Assembly: GCA_025738555.1 (NCBI GenBank)
Contig: JAOVFP010000003.1
Span: forward strand, 5,084,001 to 5,148,000
Length of the DNA: 64,000 nt
From: Cyathus striatus
Lineage: Eukaryota > Basidiomycota > Agaricomycetes > Agaricales > Nidulariaceae
Direction: 5' to 3'
Of this stretch, positions 4,749-64,000 are shown in pieces; the first letter of the stretch is position 1, and every line of letters begins with the position of its first letter. The notes under the pieces were generated by a model. That model worked only from the letters and a program-made list of their open reading frames with translations. It was not told the DNA's origin and did no database searches. The translations under genes and the position numbers were made by a program.

Positions 4749-6042
4749 ATGCCTCGCGCAGTCAAGTTTTTCGAAATGCGCGATCCTACATATACTGCTG
4801 GAAAGCCATGTCACCGAACAACGCGGCCTGCCCGTGGCATTCTACGCGTTGTTCAGCAAGCCCTTAATGTCAGCCCCGAAGATAGTCATGAACGCGATGG
4901 TATGTGGCCATTTAAATATCGCGCTAATTTGCAAACTAATATATACCTCAGACCGCAATAACAAGTCAAAGTCAATCCAAAACCTTAGTAGAGCCTCAGA
5001 CAGTCGTAGGATGGAGAAGAGTCTGGATCGGATCCCAAGACCAAAGCCTGGGGAGAACTTGAGTATGTAGCTTCAACTTCCGCCTACATTATTGTCTAAT
5101 ACGGTTCATTCTTCAGAAGCGATTGATCTTGGAGGATCAACACGCACCCGTTCCAAACCAGGCAACAAGGTCATATACCATTCTGTGCCAGATGTCGGCC
5201 CATCTTCTGCTCCAGCAGCAGCCCAGACTCTCCATTATGCTCCAGAAGCAAGTATACCGCGTAGGAGCAGGCATTATTCTCTTCAGCCTTCGATATATGC
5301 ACCTCCAAATCCAGCAGCATTGTTGCACCCAAATGTGACGCAACATTCGTATCAGACACAAGCTCCGCAGCCATTGTATAGTCAACCTCAACAAGTTGCT
5401 CATCAACGGTCATCCCGTGTCACTGACACTGCACCCCAATGGAACCACGTTTCCGTGTACTATCCGACAACAATAGTTCATAATAACGTGCCTCCTCCTA
5501 TTCAGCGTCAACGTCGCTCACACATGTCGGATCATGTCTCACCGAAACTCCAATATAATATTCACCGTCACTTCAGGAACGGCCATCTTATGTGGGATGT
5601 CACGAAGGATCCTTCTGAGGCCCGCTATGCAAAGTATGATTATCGGGAGCTTCCCGACTTTGATGGTCTGGCAGTCGCACCTGAGGTATCGGAACTTACG
5701 ATTTCCTTCACCAATTCGCGTCTATCAAGATGGAAGAAACGATGGGAACCCTTGGTTGTACGCGCACCTCACGGTGGGGCTATTACCGTCAAGAACATCT
5801 TGGACGCTGTCCATGGTTATTTCAATCAGCGAATTCGACACAGTGAGTATGAAGCGGAGTCGCAAGATGTACGCGATCGGCTTATGGCCACCGTTTCAAG
5901 GCGCGTTAATTATGGAAGTCCGCGTCGTGATCCATTACGATTGGACGTGCTCCGTGGTTGTACCCGCTTCGCCTGTCTCGCAGTTAGCAGTGAACAGCAT
6001 CGTGGCGAAACTGCATTGTCGTTAGCCTTTACTTATCCATGA
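4749..6042 (+). CDS. DUF6699 domain protein
   Basis: Hypothetical basidiomycete protein of 395 residues with a C-terminal DUF6699 domain. The function is unknown. Three exons (4749-4899, 4952-5062, 5117-6042) join in frame through introns of 52 and 54 bp, and the spliced length divides exactly by three. The N-terminal half is low complexity, rich in Pro, Ser, Gln and Tyr, and probably disordered. The domain begins near HRHFRNGHLMWDVTKDPSEA and includes a WKKRWEPLVVRAP strand, the helix ITVKNILDAVHGYF, and the typical end RLDVLRGCTRFACLAV. The start was chosen because exon 1 (MPRAVKFFEM) splices cleanly. An in-frame ATG at 4662 is an alternative. The domain call rests on pattern similarity only. 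Confidence 0.8.
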
Positions 6043-33625: not shown

Positions 33626-36192
33626 TTAATCGATAGCCTGGACACCATCGTACGCCGGTAAGCGCTTGCAAGCCTCGTCCCAATCAATCGACCCATTGAC
33701 GAGATCCGTGACAGTCGCAATCACCTCGTCAATAGGTCCAATACGCTGATCCATGGTGTCTCGTTCACTATAAAGAAAGAAAGCGTACCAGGTTAGAAAA
33801 AAGATTACCCCGGAACACGGAGTACCCTAGCGACAAGAAGGCAGGCCAGGACAGGAACTTACCGAAGTGTCATCGTCTTATTTTGAACGGCTGCAACGTT
33901 GGTGGTAGATGCCATTAGGACTTATCGTGGGCACGACAAACATTTCGTGAACTCACAGGCAAAGTCGAGTGTAACTCCGTACGGTGTGCCCAACTCGTCA
34001 TTGCGCGCGTAACGCTTTCCAATCGACGTGTTCGAATCATCTACACGGGAGAACACACCCGCCCTACGCAGCTTCGAAGCTGAAAGAAAAAGACAGAAAT
34101 AATAAGGCGTGTCAGCTGCTCTGTATGAAGTCCCCGTTGACGATAGTTATGACGCACAAACTTCCTTAACGAGGGGATCAAACTCTTCTCTCGCGCTCAG
34201 GGGTACAATAAGTACTTTCGTAGGCGCCACGAGGGGAGGAATTGAGAGTACCTGTAGGTAGTTAAGGTAGGTGAGTTAGATTAAATGAATAAGAATCTTG
34301 TATGAAGTGAAAAGAACCAACTCCACGTTCAACGTCCTGTTCTCTACTCCAGAAGCTGTGTTCCAGTAAGGTATAAAGGATGCGACCGAGGCCAAAGGAG
34401 GGTTCGATGACGTTCGGGGTGTATTCGCGGACTGGAAAGTTGCAGGTCAGATATAGAAAGTGGTTCTCGAAGTACCCAAATGTGAGGGAGGGAACTTACT
34501 GGATTGTTTGAACGTCTTGCGTTCGATAGTCAAGACTTCGGAAGTTACAGTAAACTCCCTGCCATCATCCTCGGATTTGATAGTAGCAGGGCTGTAGGTC
34601 GAGCAAGGTTAGTCGGCACCACTCTAACCGAAAAACATAACAATAGCTCACCCTTGCGCAAGCTCTCCTTTAAGCTTCAAGAGCTTTGACTCGTCGTACG
34701 AGTCAACAATCTTTTGAATGACGCCGGCGTCTGCTTTGAAAGTCTTACCCAATACTTTTTTATTCCACTCGGCGACCTCCTTCTCCGTAACGATAGGCTC
34801 CTTCAAAGCCTCTCTAACAACCAGTGGCTGGCCTGTCTTCGCAGAGTGCACCGTAAGATCATAAGCAGCCCGATCGGCACATCCAACACACTCGGTCCAC
34901 CCAGTCGAATTGTGGATCTCAGCATCCCAGCAATCCGTCGCATAATGGGCCATCTCGTTGGCCATGTGTTGCCGGAAGCGGAGGCGGGACGGGCTAATCC
35001 CGATCTTGAGCAGGAACTGGAAAATGCGCGCTATAAAGTAGCCCAGTGTCTCGTTCGCGATGATGCCCTTGTCTACCGCGTCGCCGACTGTCACGTGTGA
35101 GATCGTGCTTTGGCCTGCTTCTTGGATGTGCCTGTCGAGGAGGGCAAGCTCTACGTCGCGCACCTCGGAGAAGCGCTCGTGGCGCTTGTCGGCGGGATCG
35201 ACAAAGTGCTCGATTTCAGCCATTGTGAATTCTCGCACGCGGAGAAGGCCTGCGCGGGGTGAAATTTCGTTACGGAAGGAGCGCCCGATCTGGGCTGAGG
35301 CGAAGGGGACACGGCCGTTGTTGAACTCGAGAAGACGGGAGAAGTTGAGGAAGTGCCCTTGAGCTGTTTCCGGACGGAGGAAGCTACAATGGAGCGTAAA
35401 TGCTTGATTGGCAGGCGAGTGAATAGCAGGAAGTTACCCTGGATGTTGGCCGGTGGGACCAATGCTGCTCTTGAACATGAGATTGAATTGCTGGGGTTCC
35501 GAGACTTCGTTGTCGGTATCTGGGTTGCGGAGGTTGTATTTGCGGCATAGTTCACCAATTTGAGGGCCATCGTAGTTGTCCAACTGTATTGTATTAAGTC
35601 TAAACATGGGTGAGGTATTTCAAGATCGGACACATACCTGAGCCAAGATGCTCTCGTATTCTTCAGCGACGCCATCACCCAGTTTTGCGGCAGTGAGCTT
35701 TGCACCCTTCTTCTTCCTCTTCTTGTCATCTACGACGGGAGCGGCCGCTTCGCCCCTGGCTTCCTTGTCGGCCGCGAGACGAGCCTCAAGAACATTCTTG
35801 ACAAGGTGATCGGCACGAAGGACGTCGCCAGTCTTGGTATCTTTGACCATCCAGTCGGCGAATCTGGCGACGTGACCAGAAGTTTCGAAGACCGAGGCTG
35901 GGGTCATGACAGTGGTGTCGACCTCGAGCATGTGCTCCTCGACAATGAAGTGTTTTCGCCATTCAGCGATGATGTTTGCCTGGAGAGAGGAACCTGGTGG
36001 GCCGTAATCATAGAGACCGGCAACGCCTATCGTGGCAGAATATCAGCGATGATTGTTTGAGCAGATGGATTAAAAAGGAGATATACCGCCATAGATCTCG
36101 AATGCAGGAGCGTAGAAGAACCTGCGGTTGAGGAGAGCCTCGAAGCGAGTTTTGTCGAAGGGGTGAGCGGATTTGTTGACCTGAGATGCCAT
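33626..36192 (-). CDS. GRS1: Glycyl-tRNA synthetase (class II)
   Basis: Charges tRNA-Gly with glycine for protein synthesis. It is a eukaryotic-type alpha2 class II enzyme. The cytosolic start ATG (36192) gives [20 protein letters not shown] and is followed by [15 protein letters not shown] and [19 protein letters not shown]. Then come the Lys-rich insertion, [14 protein letters not shown] (class II motif region), [20 protein letters not shown] (motif 2) and [14 protein letters not shown]. Later exons carry [20 protein letters not shown], and the anticodon-binding C-terminus includes [20 protein letters not shown]. The end is [18 protein letters not shown]. Several short introns are present. 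In-frame codons upstream of this start encode a possible mitochondrial presequence, listed separately. Housekeeping gene, apparently intact. Confidence 0.95.
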
Positions 36193-39205: not shown

Positions 39206-41593
39206 TCAAGGCATGGTACTCAAGGTATCTTGCAGATGGCGATACCCCATCTTCAGCCATTCGTCAGGGCTAACACGGTCGTCAATGTGCCCTGGGAAGA
39301 GCAGGTTGTTCTCCGGGGAAAATGCCCAGTGTGCGGGGTCGGGAGGAGGCATGGATGTCAATGCTTGTAGTTCATTACCTGGAATACATCGTCATGTCAG
39401 CAGACTTGGACCTCATGTGGCTTGTAGTAGTAATACTACGCACGGATTATGTTATTTGTGAAATGATCGAGATTCTAAACATTGAGAATGATCAGCTTGA
39501 GCATTTAATTTATCTATCCACGCACCAGATCGTTCTTATCATAACCAAAGGGATCTAACATGTAAGGCAGGATTAAAATCTGGGGGCGGAACGTCGCAAA
39601 TAGAAAGTTACAGGACATACTTTCAATTTCTTCCCCTGCAACAAGGAACCCGAAGAATATAAAACTCTGTAAATGCAAAGGGGTCAATCGGCATAACAGC
39701 CTGGAATGATGGAATAATCGTACTGCAATTATCGTAGCAGGAATGGTCAACCACTTCAACGTGGCCCAGATCTGAAACGGCTAATGGAGTATTCAACGGT
39801 CTCTTCGTGGCGCACAGAAAGGAATTTGCATACCAGGGAAATACAATAGATGATGGTGACAAGCCATAGATGAATGGAATACCTGCGAATCCCCGGGTGA
39901 GAATTCGAGAAGATGGAGAAAAGGGAAGGTATAATTCCAGCGTACGAAAAGGGTATGGGAGTGGTCAAGATTCTCTCTAGGCCCGTGAGACTATCTACCA
40001 GCTGTGACAGGGCAGCCAGCAATGCATCTATTGAGTATACATACATTGTAAGTCACCTGAACAAGTACTAGCGCGCATAGGAATACCCACTGATCGTAGA
40101 CGCATCGGCTATCTGCTTGTGCTGCAGCACGGATACATACGAACTCTACGGACGAAATAATCAACGATCCACGTAACCACCGTGACTCGGCTCCGAGCTA
40201 AAATCAAATACATACGAGATACAATGACAATTCCAAGGGCAGATTGTGAGATATCGCCCTGTTCAGCATTTTCGCCCTCGTTTTTGCGGCCTTCTTGCCT
40301 CCTAGGTCACGACCTCTTTCTGTGAGCATATTTACAAGCAAAGAGAACGGAAAGAGATCGAAGATGCCATATTTTGGTGCGTTGTAAGCAGGAAGCAGTT
40401 CCGCTTCTTCTTCTCTTGAGAGAATCATACGTTCGCGGTTTTTGATCCCTCTCTGCGCACCCCCTGGTCGTTGTAAATGAGAATGGAGAAATTGAGATGG
40501 TTGAGAGAGGTATGTCTTCTTCGACTGATGTGCAACAGGTTCAAGGAACGTGGTCTTTGTGCGCGCCGAGTGAGAAGTCACCGGTGAAGGAAGACCAGAA
40601 GTAGCAAGTGGGTTTCGGTGATACAAGGTCGAGACTTGTTCGTCTAGAGAAGGACCAGGGGCCTCTACAGACACCCTGTACCCCTCCTTAGAGGACGATT
40701 TCCGATCTTGAATATTAACTTCCTCCGGAGGTACGTCTATTGTGGGCATGCCATGTGGGAGAGCGTATGCTGGCAGGAACTTGACCAAGTAATATAGATC
40801 TCTGGAACGTTGACGATGAAAGTGAGAAACGGGTAGCTAGACAACGACTGAGGAAGGGCAACGCACTTGTAGTAGATCCCATCTTCCCCTCGTAGATAAT
40901 GCTTGACGGCGACTGCAAATGCTTCGAGGAGGTTGATCACCGTTTTCTTTTCGATCAGTGCCCTCGTCTTCGAGTCTTCCGTCGATTTTGCATCAGTCCC
41001 TTTCGGATCTAAAGTAGAATGGAAATATTAATGAATATCCAATTCGCGGTTGTGGAGAGAATTCATTTGATCGTAGAAAGGAACACGCACCCGGAACATG
41101 AAACCACACTACGCGTGCAAAGGTACGGGTAGCGAAGATGATCTGAGACCATAGCCGTCTGCCTTCGTTATATCTCTCAAACGACGATGTAGTGCGATAT
41201 GAAATCACAAAACCTAACACGGTACCAATACTGTGGGGGATATTGTCAATCCTGTCGTCAGAAGATGTGTGGAGTATCGTACACTGTAAGAAGTGTGGGT
41301 TGAAATGAAACGTTGTGCCCATTGTGATTGAGTACGGTAATCAAGGTCGACCAGCCCGAGAAGAAAAGGAGTATGTGCCAGCATCTGAAAATGGCGGTTG
41401 CGAGCACAGCATGTACGAACGAAACAGCTGGTCGTTCCCTTGGAGCAAAGCTGTAGAAGTTCAAATGTAGTTATCACTTGCCATTTACAGGAAACGTAAA
41501 TGAAACATACGGATCGGGAACATTGGGTCCTCTGTAAGTAGAACCCTGGTGTTCCGGTAGAGGTGATGTTGTTCTCTGAAGTGAATAATCCAT
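39206..41593 (-). CDS. Bestrophin-like (UPF0187/RFP-TM) channel, copy 1
   Basis: Predicted membrane anion channel of the UPF0187/bestrophin-like family. The start ATG at 41593 gives MDYSLQRTTSPLPEH, then GPNVPDP spliced to FAPRERPAVSFVHAVLATAI, the helix FRCWHILLFFSGWSTLITVL, and the signature LGFVISYRTTSSFERYNEGR followed by LWSQIIFATRTFARVVWF. A long polar insert (about 40400-40780) separates this from the second half: LFPFSLLVNMLTERG, SHNLPLELSLYL, DALLAALSQLVDSL, WPTLKWLTIPAT, SFIFFGFLVAGEEIE, and a PFGYDKNDL block (Asp-rich, as in the bestrophin calcium-clasp region). The tail reads SPENNLLFPGHIDDR and ends HLQDTLSTMP. There are many introns. An upstream in-frame ATG (41677) is an alternative start. 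It appears intact. Confidence 0.8.
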
Positions 41594-42372: not shown

Positions 42373-44773
42373 TTACACCCAATGCATCATTCCCAAAGAT
42401 TGCTGTATCTTCACAGGCCCAAGCTTCGCCCACTCATCGGGAGTAATGCGATCCTCTAACTGCATTGAGAATAGGACGTTGTTCTCGGGGACAAATGCCC
42501 AGCGGTTGGGATCAGGAGGCGGTGTGGACGTGATAGACTTTAGCTCGTTCTCTGTGGTGATAAATGACGAAAGAACAAGAGAAATGTCAGAAAACCACTT
42601 CGGAACAATGAGTAACAGTGAACGAGAAACCCACTTATGATACCATTAGTGAAGTGATCCAGATCCTGATTAATAAAAGAAGAGTAAGTGACGGCACAAG
42701 TGGGAATGCCCGGAAAAAGTCTAGCGATGGCGGAGGCGTTAAGCATGGACTTACCAGATCATTTTTGTCGTATCCGAAGGGATCTAGAAGGAACGTGAGC
42801 ATACGGGAATATACTCGACAAATACTGATGAACACCGGTGGCTTACTTTCGATCTCTTCACCAGCAACAAGGAAGCCAAAGAAAATAAAGCTCTGCAATG
42901 CCGATGAATTAGTGACCCCAATAAACACGGACCAGTCGGTTTACAGCGGTGTTTACGTACCATCATTCCTGTAGCAGGTATTGTCAGCCACTTGAGTGTA
43001 GGCCAGACCTGCAAAGGCTGAAAACAGAATTCGCCTATGTATCGGCATCGCACATACGAAGATAAAGCGGAGCGCACGCACCAAAGCCAAGCAGTATATG
43101 ATCGCAACAAGCCACAGGTGAATCGAATATCTGGGGTGAATGGTGCTCATTTAGCATGTAGTTCACTAAGCGCAAGAGTCGGTGAACTTACATGAACGGG
43201 AGCGGCGTTGTTAGCACGCGTTCCAAGCTTGTGGCACCTTCTACGAGTTGGTTTAAAGCTGCAAGGAGTGCATCTGAGCGGAACGATATTAGATATCTCG
43301 ATGCAAAATTGAGCTTTTCAGATCTTACTGGTAGTGGGTACATCAACAGCCTTGGTGCTTTGCAATAAAGCGATATATGAACTCTGGAGTCAAGATAATG
43401 AGTTAGACACATTTAATCAATCAGGAAGAATGATAATAACGCACGATATACAAGGAAATCTCCAATGGCAAATTGTGATTAACCCTCTTTCTCCGTAAGA
43501 GCTCTTTCATCTTCGCTCTCTTAGATTGTTTATCCTTATATTTCTGACTAAGGAAATGTACAAGTAAAGAGAAAGGGAATAACTCCAGCAAGTGGTACTT
43601 CGGTGGCTTGCAGGCAGGGAGAAGGAAAGGCTCATCTTCCAAAGGCAAAATCGCATCCTTTTTAGTTATATTTCCTAAAGTTACATGGTGTGTTTCCCCA
43701 GCCGCAGATAGGTCAACGATGCGTGGCGAAGGTTGGTCGACAAAAGCTGTGCGTCGCGGTTGGGATTGAAACGTGGTATTTGAGGGTGTTGCGGTTACTG
43801 GTGGGGGAAGAGTTGAGTCCCCGAGCCATTGCCCCGCTTCCATCGATGCGATATTATCATTGGGGAACGGATCGATATTGAAGATGGATGGTGGCCCTAG
43901 GTCTTTGTCATCTTCTGGGGAGACGGCGGCAGACGGTATACTCTGGGGTACTGAGTAGGCGGGCAGGAACTTGACCAGATAATAGAGATCCCTGGAAAAT
44001 CGAAATGAGTATGGAAAAGGCAGTGTGGTTTGGGATTCCCAACTAACCTGTAGTAGATACCATCCTCGCCCCTCAGATAGTGCTTCAGGGCCACTGCATG
44101 TGCAGCTACAAGGTTAATTACCGACTTCTTTAAGATCAAGTCTCGTGCTTTCGCCTCGTCAGCTGCTGCTTTCTCCAGTCCAGAAACATCTAAATGCAGA
44201 TTACGCAAATACGTAAGTCGACGCGCACAGGCACAGGGGGAGAATAGCAACTGACTAGGGGCAGGAACGTGGAACCACACTGTTCGAGAAAAAGTCCGAC
44301 TTGCTAAAATGATTTGTCCCCATACCCGCCTGCCTTCATTATAACGTTCAAATGAAGCATTGGTCCTACATGTCATCACGAAACCAAGCACCGTACCGAT
44401 ACTATTGATCAGTATCAGTTATGCTAAGAAGCCAAGAATGAAGCCAAGAATGCTCGTACACAGTGAGAAGCGTTGGCTTGAAAATAATGTGATTTCCGCG
44501 CCAATTGAGCACCGAGACCACAGTAGCCCATGACAGGTAAAACAGTAGGATATGCCAGCATCGGAAGAACGTAGTAGAGACAAGCAACTCCACCAAGGTC
44601 CTATCCCGTTTCTGCCTTGGCGCGAAGCTATGATGAGCGACTATGTCAGCCACCCATACGCCGAAATTATAACAAGAATGAACACACGGGTCGGTTCCTC
44701 GAAATCCCTTATGCACCTCCGCCGACTTGGGCCCAGGGCTTGGAAGAGGAGAGTTGAACGTGAATCGTGGCAT
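42373..44773 (-). CDS. Bestrophin-like (UPF0187/RFP-TM) channel, copy 2
   Basis: Tandem paralogue of the gene at 39206-41593, with the same intron after the GTDP/GPNVPDP block. It starts MPRFTFNSPLPSPGPKSAEV, then GTDP spliced to FAPRQKRDRTLVELLVST, FFRCWHILLFYLSWATVVSV, LGFVMTCRTNASFERYNEGR and VWGQIILASRTFSRTVWFHV. Next come AHAVALKHYLRGEDGIYY, a shorter polar insert, LLELFPFSLLVHFLSQKY, NHNLPLEISLYI, DALLAALNQLVEGATSLERV, WPTLKWLTIPATGMM, FIFFGFLVAGEEIE and PFGYDKNDL. The final exon carries PENNVLFSMQLEDRITPDEW and ends LGMMHWV. Shared exon layout shows tandem duplication. Divergence is substantial, so the duplication is not recent. Ion specificity is unknown. Confidence 0.8.
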
Positions 44774-46079
44774 TGTGAAGTCTGTGGGACATGTTTCCTG
44801 AAATTCCTCTCAAGTAGAGTATATGAGACTTACGAGAAGATGAATGGGATTAGATATACGAAGACCAGCCTACACAGGTAACCAGCACCTGAAGGAACAA
44901 CGATGGACAGACCTGCTGTCGGGTTCAGTGTCTATAACTTTCAGAAAGCTAATGACGGCGAGCGTAAACACGAGCATAGCAACAAACTTGTGCTTATAAA
45001 ACACCATCGCTCCTTTGCACTGCCCGCCATTACATTTGATACTTGTTTTGGATCAGTGTCAACGACTCGGGCACGGAGATGGTGACCATCGATGGAGCGT
45101 ATTTTGTTGAAGACGTTTGAGGATGTTGAAGCTGAAACCCGAGGGTGGTTATTTAGTTGAACGGTAGGATAAGATTCAGAACGTTATACGTCGTTCAAGT
45201 TGAGCTCATGTTTTTGAACCCGGGAGCGCACGGTAGCCGGGCCGGGCGGAAATACCCCGCCTTCCCCTCTGAACGGTGTACGACGGTGTATCGCCTCCAC
45301 ACTTCAGTCCGATGCTAACATAAGGCGGCACCATCATTTACCGCATTCGATGTATATTGGCTTTATGTTAATTTGCATATCCGCCGATTGTACCCTTTAC
45401 TATTCAGCGCCTGTAATCACTTGCAACCGCGATGTGCAGCTATCGCGGAAGGTTTTAAAGTAGAAAGGCGGGATGAATGGGTGTTTTCCTCTCTCGTAAG
45501 TAATTACTAGCCTGTGCATATTTACATTATCCCGAACTTCTCGTACCATTGTTCTCGATGCTTTCCCTTTGCCCAGCTCACTTATTTTTCAAGTGGATTT
45601 ATGGCGCACGTAACATTGCAGCAGTCCACCTACTCTTCAGGTATTTCCTCCGTGATCCGAATCTACGACTTCCACATCCGACTCGGTTTCTCCACAAACG
45701 GGATTCTCAACATGGGGAAATATGTGAAATGTTGTAATGTCTTTTGTTTTCAACTCTTTTCTAGAAGAAGTTACACAGTAGTACAACCCTAAGGAACAAA
45801 ACGAATGATTAACTCCGGTGGAGAAGATTCTGTAGCTGTATGAAGGCAGTAAAGTATGAAGAGTCCTCTCCATCCAAAAATATAAGTAATGAAATAAAAA
45901 AGAGCGGATGTATGTAGGTGCAGAGCTGTGCAAACCACAAACCAATAATCGATGGTGGTATTATGGAAACTTGGGGGTTTAATGAGAGTTAATGTTCCAG
46001 TATCAATCCCATGCTGCTTTGATTCATCCTCAAATGGATGTCCAACGTCCTGCGCATATGTGGTTTAGGCACAATGGGT
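44774..46079. other. Intergenic, no gene recognised
   Basis: Lies between the second bestrophin-like gene's start and the peptide precursor's stop. Short frames (for example 45514-45792 plus and 45637-45945 minus) show no motif. The 45100-45990 part may hold the precursor's 3' untranslated region. Confidence 0.45.
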
Positions 46080-46707
46080 TTACCAATTGGGAGCACCAGC
46101 TTCTGCATCACGTCTCCAATTGGGTGCACCAGCCTCCGCCTCACGCTTCCAGTTGGGTGCACCAGCTTCTGCATCACGTCTCCAGTTGGGGGCACCAGCC
46201 TCCGCCTCACGCTTCCAGTTGGGGGCACCAGCTTCTGCCTCACGCCTCCAGTTGGGGGCACCAGCCTCCGCCTCACGCTTCCAGTTGGGGGCACCAGCTT
46301 CTGCCTCACGCCTCCAGTTGGGTGCACCGGCCTCTGCCTCACGTTTCCAGTTGGGAGCATCAGCTTCTGCCTCACGCCTCCAGTTGGGGGCACCACCGGC
46401 CTCAGGTTCACGCCTCCAGTTAGGAGCACCGGGTTCACGCTTCCAATTGGGCGCGCCGGCCTCCGCTTCACGTCTCCAGTTGGGCGCAGCTCTCTATTGG
46501 GAGGGAGACAATTAAGCATTGTAAAGGCTGTAGAATAAAACAACACCACACACCGCTACTTCGAGATCCCGGGCGTTGTTCTAAAGATAAATCCATCCGT
46601 TAGCGAGAGCATAATGGACAGTAAGAGTTCACGATGCTTACTGCAGGGGCAGCGCAAGCAGCACCAACGAAAGTTGCAGCAACAATGATAACAGCTGAGA
46701 TGCGCAT
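46080..46707 (-). CDS. Secreted repeat peptide precursor with Kex2 sites (GAPNW cores)
   Basis: Predicted 166-residue secreted precursor. Three exons join in phase 0: 46707-46642 (22 codons), 46580-46560 (7 codons) and 46493-46080 (137 codons plus stop), with introns of 61 and 66 bp. Exon 1 is a signal peptide (MRISAVIIVAATFVGAAC, then AAPA). Exon 2 gives NNARDLE. Exon 3 is made of 13 cores ending APNW. Twelve are preceded by Arg-Arg or Lys-Arg and then EAEA, DAEA, EP or EPEA, and the stop directly follows the last core. Unit example: KREAEAGAPNW. Kex2-type cleavage, Kex1-type trimming and dipeptidyl aminopeptidase removal of X-Ala/X-Pro would release ten GAPNW plus single AAPNW, GGAPNW and DAPNW peptides. 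This matches ascomycete alpha-factor and KEP layouts. The biological role is unknown. The second intron's donor (GTAGCG) is unusual, so the exon 2/3 border is the weakest part. Confidence 0.85.
46083..46488. repeat. 33-bp tandem repeat array within the peptide precursor
   Basis: Thirteen tandem units, mostly 33 bp (spacing ranges from about 26 to 36 bp), each with CCA(A/G)TTGG-like sequence on the plus strand. In the central part units alternate Lys-Arg and Arg-Arg types, making a 66-bp higher-order repeat. It encodes the peptide cores on the minus strand. The long open frames in other frames and on the plus strand are by-products of the repeat. Confidence 0.9.
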
Positions 46708-55467: not shown

Positions 55468-56172
55468 GGTTGGAGGGGGGAAGGGGAAACAAGACTCTCG
55501 GAGGGACAGAGGACAGATGCAGGTATTTTATTTTAGACTCTAGAGACCGGACATATGGCTGGGCGGAAAGAGCCCTGAGTGAGACAGGATGATAGATGAT
55601 TTATTTTTTAGCCCGTACCTGAATACAACACACGGATAATTGAAATTTCAATTTACTTACATATATATTCTCTTTCCATAACTCTCTCCTCCATCTCTCC
55701 ATCTCTCCCCTCCACCTCCATTCTCCAATTCTGAGAAAGGGGCTGACCACCACCACGCCCACTTCTCAGAGCTTATCGATTATCAACCCGCTCTGACAGC
55801 GGCAATGACAGCACACTGACTGTTCGTTGCAATGCCACCATGACCGTCAGCGATGCCAAGTTGGCGCTTCCGGCGCTCGCACGTTGTCGCACCCACGAGT
55901 CAGGATAGTCTCGGTGGCGCACTCCGCTGGCCATCGTATGAGAGAGGCGCTGGGGCTGCCCTCGATTACGGACCGACTATCCCCGACAGATACGCGACTG
56001 ATCTCAATCGCCCATCCGGAGTCAAAAATATATAATGACATAAACCACATGTTCCACGGGTTCATGAATGTTTGCCTCAAGGCTTCTCCGATCTAGTCGA
56101 ATATCCAAATGACTAGATAATAGCGTGCTTTCTTATATCTAAACAAAGACCTTTAGTCATCTCTCCAACACC
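55468..56172. other. Intergenic between GT90 and PNPOx copy 1
   Basis: Divergent promoter region. It includes CT-rich runs near 55680-55730. Short frames at 55827-56096 have no motif. Confidence 0.5.
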
Positions 56173-57023
56173 ATGGGCCAATTCTTCGACGAAATCCCCC
56201 CTTCCATTTCCCAATGGATCCAGCAACAAAAGATGTTCTGGGTAGCCACCGCGCCCCTCGCCGAGGACGGACACGTTAACATCTCCCCAAAAGGCACCCT
56301 GGGCACATTCCACGTCGTCGACTACCAGACCGTATGGTACGAAGACCTCACCGGGAGCGGGTGCGAGACCATCTCCCATCTACGCGAAAACGGCAGAATT
56401 ACAATCATGTTCCACGCCTTCGACGGCCCGCCGCAGATCGTGCGCCTCTTTGGCAAGGGGACCGTATACGAATTCGGGACACCCGAATACGAGGAACTCC
56501 TCCCTGTATCGAAACGCCAAGCGGGCTCGCGCGCAGTGATCATGGTAGACGTGCATAAAGTCGGCTCTGTAAGCCCCCTTCTTTCCCCTCTTCTCTTCAC
56601 TTCTACACCGTACTAACGCCATCCCAGTCCTGCGGGTTCTCCATTCCATTCTACGACTTCCGTTCGGATAGGATGAAGTTGCATATTATGGCAGCGAACA
56701 AGGAGCTGCAAGACATTTCTGCCGAATCATGCCTCACCACTCCCGCCGAGCCCCCGCGCCCCAAAACGGGACTAAAAGGGTACTGGTTTAAGCATAACGC
56801 GCGTTCTATCGACGGGTTACCCGCTTTGGAAACCGCATATGAGAGTATCATTAAATTCGAGAGGGACGAGTGGGAGGCGAAGAGGGAGAAGGACGACGAG
56901 ACGCCTCGTGGGATGACCGTGAAGAAAGAAAGACAAGGTGGGAACGGGGAGATGGTGATTTGGGGATTTATGTTGGGTGTAGCTGCTAGTGCTGCTGTTG
57001 GGCTGTTGAGGAGGAGAGTGTAG
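56173..57023 (+). CDS. PNPOx-like flavoprotein, copy 1 (tail-anchored)
   Basis: Pyridoxamine 5'-phosphate oxidase-like (split-barrel, FMN-binding) protein of 263 residues with a C-terminal membrane helix. The substrate is unknown. It starts MGQFFDEIPPSISQWIQQQK, then MFWVATAPLAEDGHVNISPK (the FMN-binding strand of the family), VWYEDLTGSGCETISHLREN, GRITIMFHAFDGPPQIVRLF and GTVYEFGTPEYEELLPV. One intron (56569-56627) precedes SCGFSIPFYDFRSDRM. The C-terminal end is a hydrophobic anchor (MVIWGFMLGVAASAAVGLL) followed by RRRV. Fewer introns than in the other copies (one rather than three) suggests intron loss or gain between paralogues. It appears intact. Confidence 0.88.
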
Positions 57024-57426
57024 ACCTGTGGGTGCGTTTTGTATTTTATGTATTGTTACATAGATGTATGTAAAAGTTGAAGTTACTATTCTATGTATAG
57101 AACACTGTTATCTGATAAACTTTAGGTTTGTAATGTGGTTTTGTACGAGTAGATGATGCTGGTCGGGTGTGTCACCGAAGTTCGAACCCAACTCAAATCG
57201 ACACTTCAGCGCTGTGCACACTGCATTACCATGACATTCGAGCCAAAGTCAAAGACTTCCGAATCTATTTCTATCACTGTCGACCACAACTGAGATGGGG
57301 GATAGTAATCTGTATTGTTGCAAACAATTATTTGGGAAGACCCTTGATATGTCAATCTTCTCTGTTCAAGGTCGCGAAGCTGCCAAACAAATTTAGAATC
57401 TGCGCTGAACTATCGAATCATTGTCC

Positions 57427-58634
57427 GGTGATGTGTCCCCTGTTACTATTCGATTCACAGATCTGGTCCAAATACGGAAATTGCTGATGCCGGCGAAACC
57501 CGGGAACACGCTGGTTCATTCTCACAACTGAACCAAGTGTTTGGCATTGGCCTCCCGTTGTTTGGCTGCGTGCCGCCTTGTGTGTGCGAGAGAAAGGTGC
57601 CCTTGAGGAGCACCACAGTAGGCATTGCGCTAATGGCATCTTGAATGCACGAGTAAATATTTTCCAGTATTTTATGGAAGCCATGATATAGCTAGATTCA
57701 TGTAAAATTAAGATAAATGGAATAAAAATGCGATATTAAATGTAGAACCAGTGGTTTTTAATTGTGTTCAATATACTTACCAGTAAGCACAAAGTTTTTG
57801 GTCTCATCTTGATTAACATCCCATGCTTGTTGAATATGATTTAAGTAATATAGTAATGTACACTGATTCTATGTAATGTTAGAAGTTGTGCAACTTGTAG
57901 CACCAAATGTCAAATGAAATTTATATAATAGTAGAAATACAGTGTTTTTATGACTATTTAAATGTGCCCCAGTACGAAATAAGAGCCTAAATAATGTATG
58001 ATAACCACTGGAAAGATTTGCAAAGGAAAAAGAATACAAGTGACCAGAAAGGTTAGAGATGAAATACTTACAATATTTAAATGATACTTGCTACAACTGA
58101 AGGAAAATATTAATAATTGACATGATAGTACACCTAAAATCACCAAGGAATGCAGACTAAAACATACATAACTGAGCAATGGTCTCATGGCAAAAGAAGG
58201 TGTGTGACAGAAAGGAATAACACGATAATAATGTTGATCTAAGCACATAAAGGTTTCACCACAGTGTGCCTCACGATATTATGTTTCTTTTTATTTCTCT
58301 TTATTCATATGTTTACCTTTCTCCATTTTACTTACTGTACACCCCAGTGGCACTCTTAGACAGTATATATAGACATTAGATACATCATTACACCTCAGCC
58401 TCAGTACTCAGTCATTGTATTCATACATTGCACTGAGGTGAGATATCTTACTTACTGTTCCTCTGTAACTCTTACTTACCTGACACATAGATATAATATC
58501 TAACTACTCTCCTCATGTGTATAGACTAAACTTATAGATATCTATTTCTACAAATAACAACATAAACTTAAGATAACTGACGCACACAGGGCCACAAATT
58601 TACATTAGTAATACTTAAGTAACAGTAATATTGG
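57427..58634. mobile_element. 1.2 kb insertion with 10-bp target-site duplication
   Basis: ATCATTGTCC occurs at both borders (57417-57426 and 58635-58644). The homologous region before copy 3 (near 60415-60440) runs straight through as ATCGTTGTTCTAGAGTATTC, with no insertion, so it is a natural empty site. The 1208-bp insert is very AT-rich after about 57700 and has no coding frame. It contains a TATA-like sequence near 58360 and short TGTTAC/GTAACA ends set slightly inside each border. The element class is unclear. A 10-bp duplication fits Mutator-like DNA elements, while the composition could also suit an LTR remnant. Confidence 0.75.
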
Positions 58635-58967
58635 ATCATTGTCCAAGAGTATTCAAGCCTATTGGATTTGTGTATCAGCAATATTTTTCCTTGCTCTAAA
58701 ATAAACCTTGCAACGCTCGTTTTAAGTTCTTTCAGACAAGCATCTGGATGATGTTGTTCTAAGTGGCGCGTATCAGATACTTAGCTATTCTAGTTGCCGG
58801 GTGGAGTACGTGTTCCTCGTATTCTGACACCATTCGGCGCTGGCTCCGCATTCAACCGCTACGTCTTTCCAATTTACTCATTGTACCAAACGAGCGATTA
58901 AACTCACTGCGTGCCAGTAACAAAACATGCACCACTGATGCGCTACCAGGGATCTAGGGACTGGAAC

Positions 58968-58976
58968 TATATATAT
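58968..58976 (+). promoter_or_regulatory. TATA-like site, PNPOx copy 2
   Basis: CTATATATATG lies about 107 bp upstream of the ATG at 59077, and the same site occurs at the same distance before copy 3. It is followed by a block shared by both promoters. Confidence 0.45.
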
Positions 58977-59076
58977 GTAACCTCTTCCTGAAAGTAAATC
59001 ATACCCCGCCTCACCTACGAAAACCTTACTCACAATCCATCTCCATTCACAAACAACTTCTACCGAGCTTGACACC

Positions 59077-60099
59077 ATGGGTCAGTTCTTCGAAGAAATT
59101 CCACCCTCTCAAATATCATGGATAAAACAACAAAAGGTGTTTTGGGTTGCCACTGCTCCGTTAGCTGAAGACGGACACGTAAATGTCTCGCCGAAGGGGT
59201 ACGATCAGACTTTTCATATTGTCGATAGCCAGAGGGTGTGGTATGAGGATTTGAGTGGGAGTGGTGCGGTTTTCTTTTATTCTATCATTGCGAATAATAG
59301 AAAGGCTGATAGTTCGATCATTAGGTGCGGAGACGATTGCGCATCTGCGCGAGAATGGACGTATTACTATTTTGTTTGTTGCGTTTGAGGGACCGCCGAA
59401 GTTGGTTAGGTTGTTTGGTAAAGGTACGATTTCTTTTTCCTAATATCTGGATAAAATGGCTGATATTTGGAATATGTGAAGGCACGGTTCACGAATTCGG
59501 GACTCCGGAATACGAAGAATTCGTCCCTATAGAAAGGCGTCATGCAGGATCGCGTGCAGTTATCGTGATAGATGTACACAAACTCGGCACAGTAAGCCTT
59601 CAATTCTTCTTCGTCTTCATTTTGTTTACTGACCAGCATCCAGTCCTGCGGATTTTCCATCCCCTTCTTCGACTACAGATGCGAGCGCATGAAACACGTA
59701 ACAATGGGCGCGAAAATGGAACTTAAAGACATCGCGCACGAAGCTTCCTGCTCCAATATCCCAGAGGGCCAACCAAAACCCAAAGGACAAGGACTAAAAC
59801 ACTTCTGGGAGTCAAATAACTTGAAGAGCATCGATGGATTACCTGCCCTTGAGAGTGCCCATAATAGCGAGGTTGGGTTTATCAGGGAAGAGTGGGAAGG
59901 GAATAGGGAGAAAGATGACGAGTCAATTAGAAGGAATAGGAAAGTAGAGAAGAAGGAAGAAGTTGCTAATATGGTGGTGAAGGGAAACAACGGTAGAGAT
60001 GATAGGATAGTTATTGGGTTTATTCTTGGTCTTTTGGTGAGTATGGTGGTTGTTGGGCTGAGGAGGACTTTGGAGGCTCGGGGGTTGGTTGTGCCTTGA
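59077..60099 (+). CDS. PNPOx-like flavoprotein, copy 2 (tail-anchored)
   Basis: Paralogue of copy 1, 283 residues, in four exons: 59077-59263, 59325-59423, 59482-59591, 59644-60099 (introns 61, 58 and 52 bp, total divisible by three). It starts MGQFFEEIPPSQISWIKQQK, then VFWVATAPLAEDGHVNVSPK, TFHIVDSQRVWYEDLSGSG, ETIAHLRENGRITILFVAFE, GTVHEFGTPEYEEFVP and SCGFSIPFFDYRCERMKHVT. A charged linker precedes a C-terminal helix (IVIGFILGLLVSMVVVGL) and a short Arg-containing tail ending GLVVP. Its sequence is almost identical to copy 3, including the promoter. It appears intact. The insertion described above lies 433 bp or more upstream and may affect its expression. Confidence 0.88.
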
Positions 60100-60855
60100 A
60101 CCGTTTTTCTTTTTCTTTTTCTGTTTTAACGTTAGGATCACGATATTTATCTACTTTAGTTATATCGACGAAGTTCGACCCACAGAACAGAGCGCGCGAT
60201 TGGGGATTACCTTAATTACGCCTTTCACTGCACAATTAATAAGATAAGATAAGATCCATAGCTACTTACCGTAATTACATTTATGATTTATTACTCGAGG
60301 TCGATGAAATGTTGGTGTAGAAATTATTTGGGAAGAGTCTTGATATATCAATCTTCTCCGTTCAAACTAAGGCTCACGAAGCTGCCAAACAAATTTAGAA
60401 TCTGCGCCGAACTATCGAATCGTTGTTCTAGAGTATTCAAGCTTATTGGATTCGTGAACCGCCAAGCTATTTTCCTCACTCTAAATTAAACCTTACAACG
60501 TTCGTATTAAGTTCTTTCTGACAAGCATCTGGATGCACGCTGTGTTATCTGCACGCAATCTGCGCGTAGCGGCGTATCAGATACATAACTACTATTCCAA
60601 TTACCAGATGACATACATATTCCTCTGACACCATTCGGCGCTAGCTCCGCATTCAACCGCTACGGGCTAATTTACTCATTGTACCAACATGTGTCATTAA
60701 TAAAAGCATGCACCAATGGTTCGCTACCAGGGATTAGGGACTGAAACTATATATATGTAACCTCTTCCTGAAAGTAAATCATACCCCGCCTCACCTACGA
60801 AAATCTTACTCCAATCCATCCCCATCAATAAATAACTTTTACCGAGCTTGACACA
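60100..60855. other. Intergenic between PNPOx copies 2 and 3
   Basis: Holds the 3' flank of copy 2, the duplication boundary near 60321 and the copy 3 promoter, with a TATA-like site at about 60749-60757. No other gene. Confidence 0.6.
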
Positions 60856-61970
60856 ATGGGCCAATTCTTCGAAGAGATTCCACCCTCTCAAATATCATGG
60901 ATAAAACAACAAAAGGTGTTCTGGGTCGCCACGGCTCCGCTAGCTGAAGACGGGCACGTAAATGTCTCGCCAAAGGGGTACGAGCAGACTTTTCATATTG
61001 TCGATAGCCAGAGGGTGTGGTATGAGGATTTGACTGGGAGTGGTGCGTTCTCTTTTATTCTATCATTGTGGATGATAGAAAGGCTTATGGTTCAATAGGT
61101 ACGGAGACGATTGCGCATCTGCGCGAGAACGGGCGTATTACTATTTTGTTTGTTGCGTTTGAGGGACCGCCGAAGTTGGTTAGGTTGTTTGGTAAAGGTA
61201 TGATTTTCTTCCTTTAATATTTGGATAATATGGCTGATATTTGGGATGTGTGAAGGCATGGTTCATGAATTCGGGACTCCGGAATACGAAGAATTCATCC
61301 CTATAGAAAAGCGCCTTGCAGCGTCGCGTGCAGTTATCGTGATAGATGTACATAAAGTTGGTACAGTAAGCCTTCAATTCTTCTTCGTCTTCATTTCGTT
61401 TATTGACCAGCATTCAAGTCTTGTGGATTTTCCATCCCCTTCTTCGACTACAGATGCGAGCGCATGAAACATGTAACAATGGGCGCGACATTTGAACTTA
61501 AAGACATCGCGCACGAAGCTTCCTGCTCCAATATCCCAGAGGGCCAACCAAAACCCAAAGGACAAGGGCTAAAGCACTACTGGGAGTTAAATAACTTGAA
61601 GAGCATCGACGGATTACCTGCCCTTGAGAGTGCCCATAATAGTGAAGTTGGGTTTATCAGGGAAGAGTGGGAAGGGAACAGAGAGAAGGATGACGAATCA
61701 ATTGGAAGGAATCGAAAAGTAGAGAAGAAGGAAGAAATTGCCAACGCGGTGGTGAAGGGAGAGAACGGTAGGGATGATAGGATAGTTATTGGGTTTATTC
61801 TGGGTCTTTTGGCGAGTGCAGTGGTGATTGGGTTGAGGAGGGCTTTGGAGGCTCGGGGGATGGTTGTTCTTGAATCGATTTTCTTCTTTTTTCTTTTTAA
61901 CGTTAGGATCATGATATCTATCTACTTTAGTTATATCGACGAAGTTCGACCCACAGAACAGAGTGTGTGA
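60856..61970 (+). CDS. PNPOx-like flavoprotein, copy 3 (extended C-terminus)
   Basis: Near-identical duplicate of copy 2 with the same four-exon structure. It starts MGQFFEEIPPSQISWIKQQK, then VFWVATAPLAEDGHVNVSPK, VWYEDLTGSG, ETIAHLRENGRITILFVAFE, GMVHEFGTPEYEEFIP and SCGFSIPFFDYRCERMKHVT. The membrane helix is IVIGFILGLLASAVVIGLRR. After GMVV the copy 2 stop context GTGCCTTGA is here GTTCTTGAA. One base is missing, the stop is lost, and the frame runs another 30 or so codons through an FFFFLFNVRIMISIYF stretch to the stop at 61970. This puts a second hydrophobic segment after the anchor. Whether this form is made is unknown. Alternatively it could be a sequencing error in a T-rich tract. 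Confidence 0.8.
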
Positions 61971-63675
61971 CTGGGGATTATTCTAATTACGCCTTTCACT
62001 GCACTATTAATAAAATAAGATAAGATCCATAACTACTTACCATAATTATGATTTATGATTTATTACTCGAGGTCGATGAAATCTTGGTGTAGAACGTTGC
62101 AGTCGTTGAAGTGTGAATGAAGTTCAATAGCCAAATTCAGTCGGAGATGAAAATTTGACTTTGATTTTAAGCCAAGACCTTTTCAACCTTCAACCTCTTC
62201 ACTTACACCGCGAACATCCCCTTAACCCAATCTCCCGTCTCGCCATTGCATTTACATGAACAATGGATTGATTTCTCGTTGACCGTCTAACCTGGGTCCA
62301 GATATTCTGCAACAAGTCGTAGTAGACTTCTGCAAACTTGCGCTGATGACGACTCAACTTTCAAAGTTCAAGCAGCCCTGCTAACTCTTGGCAAGAGCGG
62401 ACATGAAGTTTCTTATGAAATCGATATGTGCTTCATTTATTGTACCAGAGTAGGTCACGAAGGTACAGCAAGGATATTAAAGTGTTTCATTCACATTCTA
62501 GTTCAGGCCAAGGCTCATCGGTCCCTCGATGTCTCATCGCTATTAAATCCAATTCGTCGAACATGAAACTCGATCTTGTTTACATAGCTAAGCATGCTGT
62601 TTTGCTACCCTTCTCCATCCACAGTGGTCAAATGTCGAAATTCAACATTTCCATGAATGACGTGACTCTTTGGATGGCCCCTGTACATGTTGGTGTAAAA
62701 TGCATGCCTTTGTCATTTTTGAAACGTTTTCTTACTTTAGTGGTTCTAGGCTGTGGTTGAGACCTTAATGCTCTTAGTTCTTCTCGAGGAATTTTTCTAG
62801 CGACACAAAGTAGCGAACGCCCCTTTATTTCTCCAAATCATAACTGCCATTTCATTATTTTTTACCAATATACAGGTACCTCGAGTTTCTTAAGGCTTCA
62901 AGGGAAGTCTGGAATCGTAGTAATGCAAATCTCAACATATTTGAAAGGCTATACACACGCAGGAAGCTTGTAATAAACTAGGAAACTTCGTGCCTCCTCG
63001 ATGACGTATGCATATTGTAGAAACACTACTTATTCTCGATTCGCGAGTCACATGGTCCCGGAGAAGAAAATGAATCATGAAGAAAAAGATATCGCTACCG
63101 TACAAGGTTTGGCGTATTCAATTTTTTACCGCTGCATTGCTTCGTAATACTTCGGCACTCTTGGAGACGAACGAGTCCCTGGTACTAGGGATAATGGACT
63201 TACTTGCTAGTAACGACTGGTAACCTGCGAAGTTGTCCAGAACATTGAATCGCTTTCTCTGAGCTTTGAGTCTTCTCTTGCTCACAGTCGTCAAGAGCTG
63301 AGACGTGACTACAACGCATGGTCAAACCTGGTTTCGAGTTCTCGACTCTACCTCCTTAACACTGATATGACAAGCATCAGGCGCCACGTCCATCTGCCGT
63401 TATCTGATAACTTCCTGATCTAATTCTGACTCTGCCGTGCGCATACGTACTTTTTCTCCGTGGTTCCTCTGAGTCCTATTGGCTGCTCTGTTTGGGAGTC
63501 CATATTGTATATTGAATACCTAGTTCTGACCATGTTCTCGCTCCATTTCTGACATCCGGTTGGTTGTTATGGCTGCGTGTGGCTACATAAAAAATATTTA
63601 TATGTAAGCACTTCAGCTCTTGAAGAAAATCACCATCTTAAAGTTCAACCAAACTGCAAGTAACTCTACTACAAT
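61971..63675. other. Intergenic between PNPOx copies 3 and 4
   Basis: The first part is the end of duplication unit 2 (to about 62098). The rest holds no recognised gene. A 110-codon plus frame at 62428-62760 has no motif. Confidence 0.5.
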
Positions 63676-64000
63676 ATGGGAAAATTATTCGATGAAATCC
63701 CTGCTGCTCAGATTTCTTGGATCCAACAACAGAAAATTTTTTGGGTTGCCACTGCCCCGCTCGCCGAGGATGGACATGTTAATGTTTCGCCAAAAGGGTA
63801 CGAGGGGAGCTTCCATATTGTAGATAATCAAAAGGTATGGTATGAGGATTTGAGTGGAGTGGTATGTTCTTATTTTATTTCTCGTCGTAAATTGAAACCG
63901 ATGATAGTTATAGGCGCTGAAACCATTGCGCATCTCCGCGACAATGGACGCATTACGATTATGTTTGTAGCATTCGAAGGTCCACCAGAGATCATCAGGC
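63676..64000 (+). CDS. PNPOx-like flavoprotein, copy 4 (partial, cut by window)
   Basis: Fourth paralogue, more diverged. It starts MGKLFDEIPAAQISWIQQQK, then IFWVATAPLAEDGHVNVSPK, SFHIVDNQKVWYEDLSG, ETIAHLRDNGRITIMFVAFE, and continues past the window end. At the end of exon 1, copies 2 and 3 read AGTGGGAGTGG, but this copy reads AGTGGAGTGG. Normal removal of the 52-bp intron (donor GTATGT, about 63860-63911) would therefore shift the frame. Unspliced, the reading frame stays open through the intron. So the copy is either expressed with that intron retained or decaying. The remaining exons are outside the window. Confidence 0.75.
   Translation, partial: MGKLFDEIPAAQISWIQQQKIFWVATAPLAEDGHVNVSPKGYEGSFHIVDNQKVWYEDLSGVVCSYFISRRKLKPMIVIGAETIAHLRDNGRITIMFVAFEGPPEIIR

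Follow-up and report, generated by a model that had tools for sequence, protein, structure and literature searches.

A minus-strand gene at positions 46707..46077 of the window (the whole stretch of 64,000 nt analysed here), stop codon included, was predicted to consist of three exons and to encode a precursor of 166–168 aa. In this precursor, a hydrophobic N-terminus is followed by a short pro-region and thirteen APNW cores. It is very probably a KEX2-processed repeat protein (KEP), of the mushroom type that resembles alpha-factor precursors and carries Ste13 motifs, and would mature by a Kex2/Ste13 route. The chances are about even that the resulting linear GAPNW peptides are used for extracellular signalling or biotic interaction.

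Structure of the Precursor Gene

The first-pass annotation had placed the gene at 46080..46707; the start at 46707 was retained, and the coding sequence was found to end at 46077, with the stop codon, rather than at 46080. Exon 1 (46642..46707) contains the ATG and a hydrophobic, signal-peptide-like N-terminus, MRISAVIIVAATFVGAACAAPA. It is followed by a predicted intron of 61 nt (46581..46641, GTAAGC...TTTAG, phase 0, with a branch-like CTAAC at 46603), by exon 2 (46554..46580), which encodes the short pro-region NNARDLEVA, by a second predicted intron of 60 nt (46494..46553, GTGTGT...AATAG, phase 0), and by exon 3 (46077..46493) with the thirteen cores and the stop TAA (46079–46077), all on the minus strand. 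Removal of both predicted introns yields one open reading frame, and an in-frame TAG immediately upstream of exon 3 makes the second intron necessary. Of the signal-peptide exon and two GT-AG introns proposed earlier, the signal-like leader and the single reading frame therefore stood; the splicing is predicted, and the donor of intron 2 is ambiguous.

Two in-frame GTs are available as this donor, one at 46559 (GTAGCG; 166 aa, exon 2 then ending at 46560 with NNARDLE) and one at 46553 (GTGTGT; 168 aa). The 46553 donor, and with it the 168 aa model, was preferred because GTGTGT is closer to the donor consensus than GTAGCG is. Leader alignments with two homologues appear not to decide the matter: with P0003, the longer model scored 64.5 (z 8.6) versus 59.5 (z 7.9) for the shorter, and with P0009 its score was higher (42 vs 39) and its z lower (5.3 vs 5.9).

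Exon 3 begins with RAAPNW, so that the first core, AAPNW (46476..46490, minus strand), is preceded by a single Arg and no dibasic site. The twelve units that follow (46080..46475, minus strand) consist of (K/R)R, a spacer (EAEA, EP, EPEA or DAEA) and a core, which is GAPNW in ten units, GGAPNW in one and DAPNW in one. KR or RR with X-Ala/X-Pro dipeptides precedes 12 of the 13 cores, and the Ste13 signature, an XA/XP dipeptide directly after the Kex2 site, was found in 12/12 units. The Trp of the last core is the C-terminus of the precursor, and TAA comes next. The repeat organization described in the first-pass annotation was confirmed, and its likening to alpha-factor precursors, here with a Kex2/Ste13 layout, was supported.

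Repeat Array and Coding Constraint

At the DNA level, the array forms a tandem repeat (46083..46430) with a period of 33 bp (84% matches) and a higher-order period of 66 bp (91% matches). RR and KR alternate across most units. The 66-bp period fits growth of the array through duplication of two-unit blocks, which would account for this mostly regular alternation.

Over the ten 11-codon units of regular form, pS was 0.479 and pN 0.043 in the coding frame (pN/pS 0.089). Within the APNW codons of these units, pN was 0 and pS was 0.533, with no amino-acid change. The same ten units gave pN/pS values of 8.9, 1.08, infinite, 1.67 and 0.097 in the five other frames, the frame with 1.08 holding 11 stop codons, which were skipped in the calculation. 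The ratio was thus at least 1.08 in four of the five non-coding frames, and 0.097 in the fifth, the complementary antisense frame. Because that frame is also low, the test settles only the register; assignment to the minus strand was based on the leader, introns, dibasic sites, homologues and paralogue.

The antisense ORF at 46069–46515 (+), open and with the pN/pS of 0.097, has no signal-like leader at its start and was rejected as an artefact, since its wobble positions presumably mirror those of the coding frame. Its near-equal ratio is a warning against inferring strand from such values. A Pfam match of the precursor to RDM3_C (27.1 bits, cut-off 35) was taken as a repeat artefact.

Homologues in Agaricales

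The one-sequence protein search, in which 7994 candidates with the most words in common were scored, yielded 6 proteins and the profile search 11, together 12 (P0001–P0012). The top catalogue match shared 45% identity with the precursor, and no identical protein was among the matches of the one-sequence search. None of its 6 matches was a C. striatus protein, which may mean that this species lacks the gene or that it has not been annotated there. The named hosts were Termitomyces sp., Amanita thiersii, Lyophyllum shimeji, Arthromyces matolae and Volvariella volvacea. The basidiomycete origin read from the letters was upheld: the named homologues come from Agaricales genera, and the window ORF at 5071–6039 (+) is 94% identical (290/308) to a Cyathus striatus protein, its sole match at E ≤ 1e-5. 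On this one ORF, the host would be a bird's-nest fungus of the genus Cyathus near C. striatus, though perhaps a different species.

The homologues carry KR/RR plus EA/EP and Trp-ended cores, the core ends being mostly PxW, or SNW/NNW. The layout expected of relatives recurs in Agaricales genera; one VAPNW core occurs in Arthromyces and one SPNW in P0009. P0001–P0004 and P0010 resemble the APNW precursor in their signal-like leader, KR/RR sites, EA/EP or similar spacers and mostly PxW cores. They differ from it in that these cores are mostly PGW, PSW, PPW, PAW and PDW and their units fewer and less uniform.

Low complexity (KR, EA) explains part of this similarity. For this reason, leader sequences stripped of the cores were aligned with those of P0001–P0005, P0008–P0010 and the paralogue. 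Against P0003 of Lyophyllum shimeji and against P0009, 0 of 1000 shuffles reached the observed score in either case. For the six other homologues tested and the paralogue, between 8 and 156 of 1000 shuffles did so; these matches are weak, and the case for homology is there made by repeats and layout. The exon 2 pro-region resembles AREL..AR of P0003. The Trp of the last core is the natural C-terminus in 7 of 14 precursors compared (the window precursor, the paralogue, P0001, P0003, P0004, P0009 and P0010); some of the other seven lie on short contigs and may be partial.

Paralogue and Other Repeat Loci

The genome scanned comprised 107.45 Mb in 24 contigs; as its searches score only the best candidates, exon by exon, paralogue counts are lower bounds. 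Among the best candidates scored, the only other matches with E < 0.001 fell at 1710.4–1710.9 kb of contig C4, where a second Trp-core precursor was located (L009, G000:C4:1710402-1710871, plus strand). When spliced in silico, this paralogue encodes 118 aa, in which six APPW cores are accompanied by one GDW unit. Its introns of 52 and 58 nt are both phase 0, and its three-exon plan is that of the window gene; its spacers (DTDAS, DTEAT) are less clean Ste13 motifs. The SNW-type relative P0008, used as a genome query with no control, gave no match among the best candidates scored.

Loci L010–L013 (E 0.12–0.83) were rejected as APNW relatives, as they carry different repeats (EVQRGNFGR). They form near-duplicate loci, L010/L011 (G000:C3:5959940-5960218, minus strand) and L012/L013 (G000:C10:4273856-4274398, plus strand), with UstYa matches about 3.3 kb from L010 and from L012. 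Both have the look of dikaritin-type RiPP clusters, duplicated and with single-Arg spacers.

Pfam scans covered 20 ORFs of the window. Two bestrophin-like ORFs (Bestrophin_2), apparently tandem copies, lie beside the peptide gene at 40996–41340 and 43900–44418, both on the minus strand. The region 56143–64000 (+) holds several ORFs that are alike by eye (M-G-x-F-x-E-I-P..., WVATAPLAEDGHVN) and looks like a tandem array, the first ORF of which matches PNPOx_N. A match to the class II tRNA synthetase core domain was found at 34651–35433 (−).

Predicted Processing

KEPs were defined by Le Marquer et al. 2019 (PMC6339444). In that paper and in Umemura 2020 (PMC7329392), the criteria are at least three similar fragments between KR/RR sites, making up at least 15% of the length, together with a predicted signal peptide and no transmembrane segment elsewhere; Umemura 2020 adds units of at least 8 aa. 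The APNW precursor agrees with the criteria for fragments: 12 of them follow Kex2 sites, and without the basic pair ten measure 9 aa, one 7 and one 10. Its N-terminus is hydrophobic by sequence and aligns with the leaders of P0003 and P0009.

The precursor would be directed into the secretory pathway. Kex2 would cleave after every KR or RR and Kex1 would remove the basic residues, leaving peptides of the EAEAGAPNW type, from which a Ste13-type dipeptidyl aminopeptidase would take off EA, EP or DA dipeptides. Enzymes of the DPP type are not known to cleave before Pro (Pro in P1' blocks), so trimming should halt at x-Ala-Pro, that is, at GAPNW, where the next dipeptide is Gly-Ala and Pro follows. 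A script applying this rule to the twelve units returned 10 GAPNW, 1 GGAPNW and 1 DAPNW. The predicted product is accordingly linear and Trp-ended, with GAPNW ten times, one GGAPNW, one DAPNW and possibly AAPNW, as the first core, with its single Arg, may come off in that form. When C. cinerea KEPs were expressed in Pichia, some of the products reported had apparently been cut after a single Arg (PMC9769878).

The genome holds matches for both processing families: DPPIV_N (10/10 over cut-off, on contigs C4, C5, C11 and C17) and P_proprotein (3/3 over cut-off, on C2 and C5). These matches make the presence of Ste13-like and Kex2-like genes likely.

Discussion

The APNW gene belongs to a class already described in the literature, which includes KEPs of basidiomycetes that have Ste13 motifs and cores ending in Trp (PMC6339444, PMC7329392, PMC9769878). 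Le Marquer et al. 2019 reported KEPs from Basidiomycota that have Ste13 signatures together with a conserved XSDW motif (PMC6339444), and Umemura 2020 counted 7878 KEPs in 1345 of 1461 strains (PMC7329392). Vogt et al. 2022 noted Ste13 motifs and a C-terminal Trp in many basidiomycete KEPs, expressed C. cinerea KEPs in Pichia and obtained QYKAPSW, and found GPPAPSW in C. cinerea culture fluid as well as SGVAADW-type peptides (PMC9769878). What is new here is this particular gene, its pure 13-copy APNW array, the constraint on it, and the paralogue. Neither PMC9769878 nor PMC7329392 has the string PNW in its main text; their full KEP lists sit in supplementary files, where a relative may be listed. 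Titles among the literature matches listed for APNW look unrelated, and no literature from 2023 on was found that combines KEX2-processed repeat proteins, STE13 and Agaricomycetes.

The closest counterparts by description are C. cinerea KEPs 490115 and 447393, Agaricomycete proteins that give the Trp-ended peptides QYKAPSW and GPPAPSW, the former KEP also having RR sites and XA/XP motifs (PMC9769878). The likeness is one of description; their core is APSW rather than APNW and their peptides are longer, and GPPAPSW, unlike the APNW cores, derives from a non-repetitive C-terminus (PMC9769878). Pleurotus KEPs 1091723 and 1439342 likewise combine KEX2 sites, Ste13 motifs and Trp-ended peptides, but their cores end in AADW, not APxW; the SGVAADW peptides were seen as linear by mass spectrometry (PMC9769878). 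As reported for C. cinerea, synthetic KEP peptides had no antibacterial activity and six kep knockouts had no phenotype (PMC9769878); these results leave a role in signalling or defence putative.

Three other readings of the gene were weighed. The architecture of secreted, Kex2-cut repeats is shared with dikaritin precursors (ustiloxin, phomopsin), and enzymes of the UstYa type that might cyclise or cross-link the cores are encoded in the genome (34 matches, 33 over cut-off, including those near L010 and L012). DUF3328 genes are reported near 22% of KEP genes and near 17 of 76 homologues of Ste13-type basidiomycete KEPs (Umemura, PMC7329392). However, no UstYa/DUF3328 match was found in the window, in agreement with the first-pass annotation; on contig C3 the closest one starts at 5,963,500, more than 800 kb from the gene (5,130,077–5,130,707), and on C4 more than 1.3 Mb separate the paralogue from the closest UstYa match. 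The APNW cores lack Tyr, and related Agaricomycete peptides were detected as linear (PMC9769878). Cross-linking by an unlinked gene may occur, but a dikaritin-like RiPP precursor is improbable, and the cyclised product suggested earlier found no support. A surface-bound or structural repeat peptide of the U. maydis Rep1 kind, or a secreted protein with repeats that is not cut into signals, is about equally improbable: many identical copies and the silent C. cinerea knockouts would suit it, but the cores are very short, and the Ste13 signature present here is stated to be absent from Rep1 (PMC6339444).

The plan of the precursor is also that of ascomycete alpha-factor precursors, with signal sequence, Kex2 sites, Ste13 dipeptides and a repeated core (PMC6339444), as would be expected of an alpha-factor-type basidiomycete mating pheromone read by a STE2-like receptor. 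In contrast to those precursors, the APNW core is unrelated and MF_alpha is absent among the Pfam matches of the precursor at E ≤ 1. Basidiomycete mating pheromones are defined by a C-terminal CaaX, whereas the present precursor ends GAPNW-stop. The one STE2 match in the genome, L014, lies below cut-off (21.5 bits vs 27.2) in a search with no eukaryote positive control; STE3 gave 31 matches, 30 over cut-off, which indicates that the method finds fungal pheromone receptors here, though a divergent STE2 could be missed. The STE3 receptor-like matches lie on contigs C15, C6, C16, C8 and C20, several of them clustered on C15 and C6. The earlier view that this is not a standard mating factor was thus sustained, and an alpha-factor-type pheromone is the most improbable of the three readings. 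The most likely use is that of an extracellular signal or biotic-interaction peptide rather than a mating pheromone.

As a KEP of the Ste13-motif type, the APNW precursor adds a very uniform, high-copy member with a defined predicted product to the alpha-factor-like KEPs of mushrooms. Its cores are under strong constraint, and it has a paralogue as well as similar counterparts in several other genera of Agaricales. It is conceivable, though rather unlikely, that GAPNW and its PxW relatives form an Agaricales family of Trp-ended peptide hormones, processed in alpha-factor style and perceived by a non-STE2 receptor, that would coordinate hyphae or fruiting or serve the recognition of neighbours. 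GAPNW offers a concrete peptide for probing the role of such products in fungi that are believed to mate without them.
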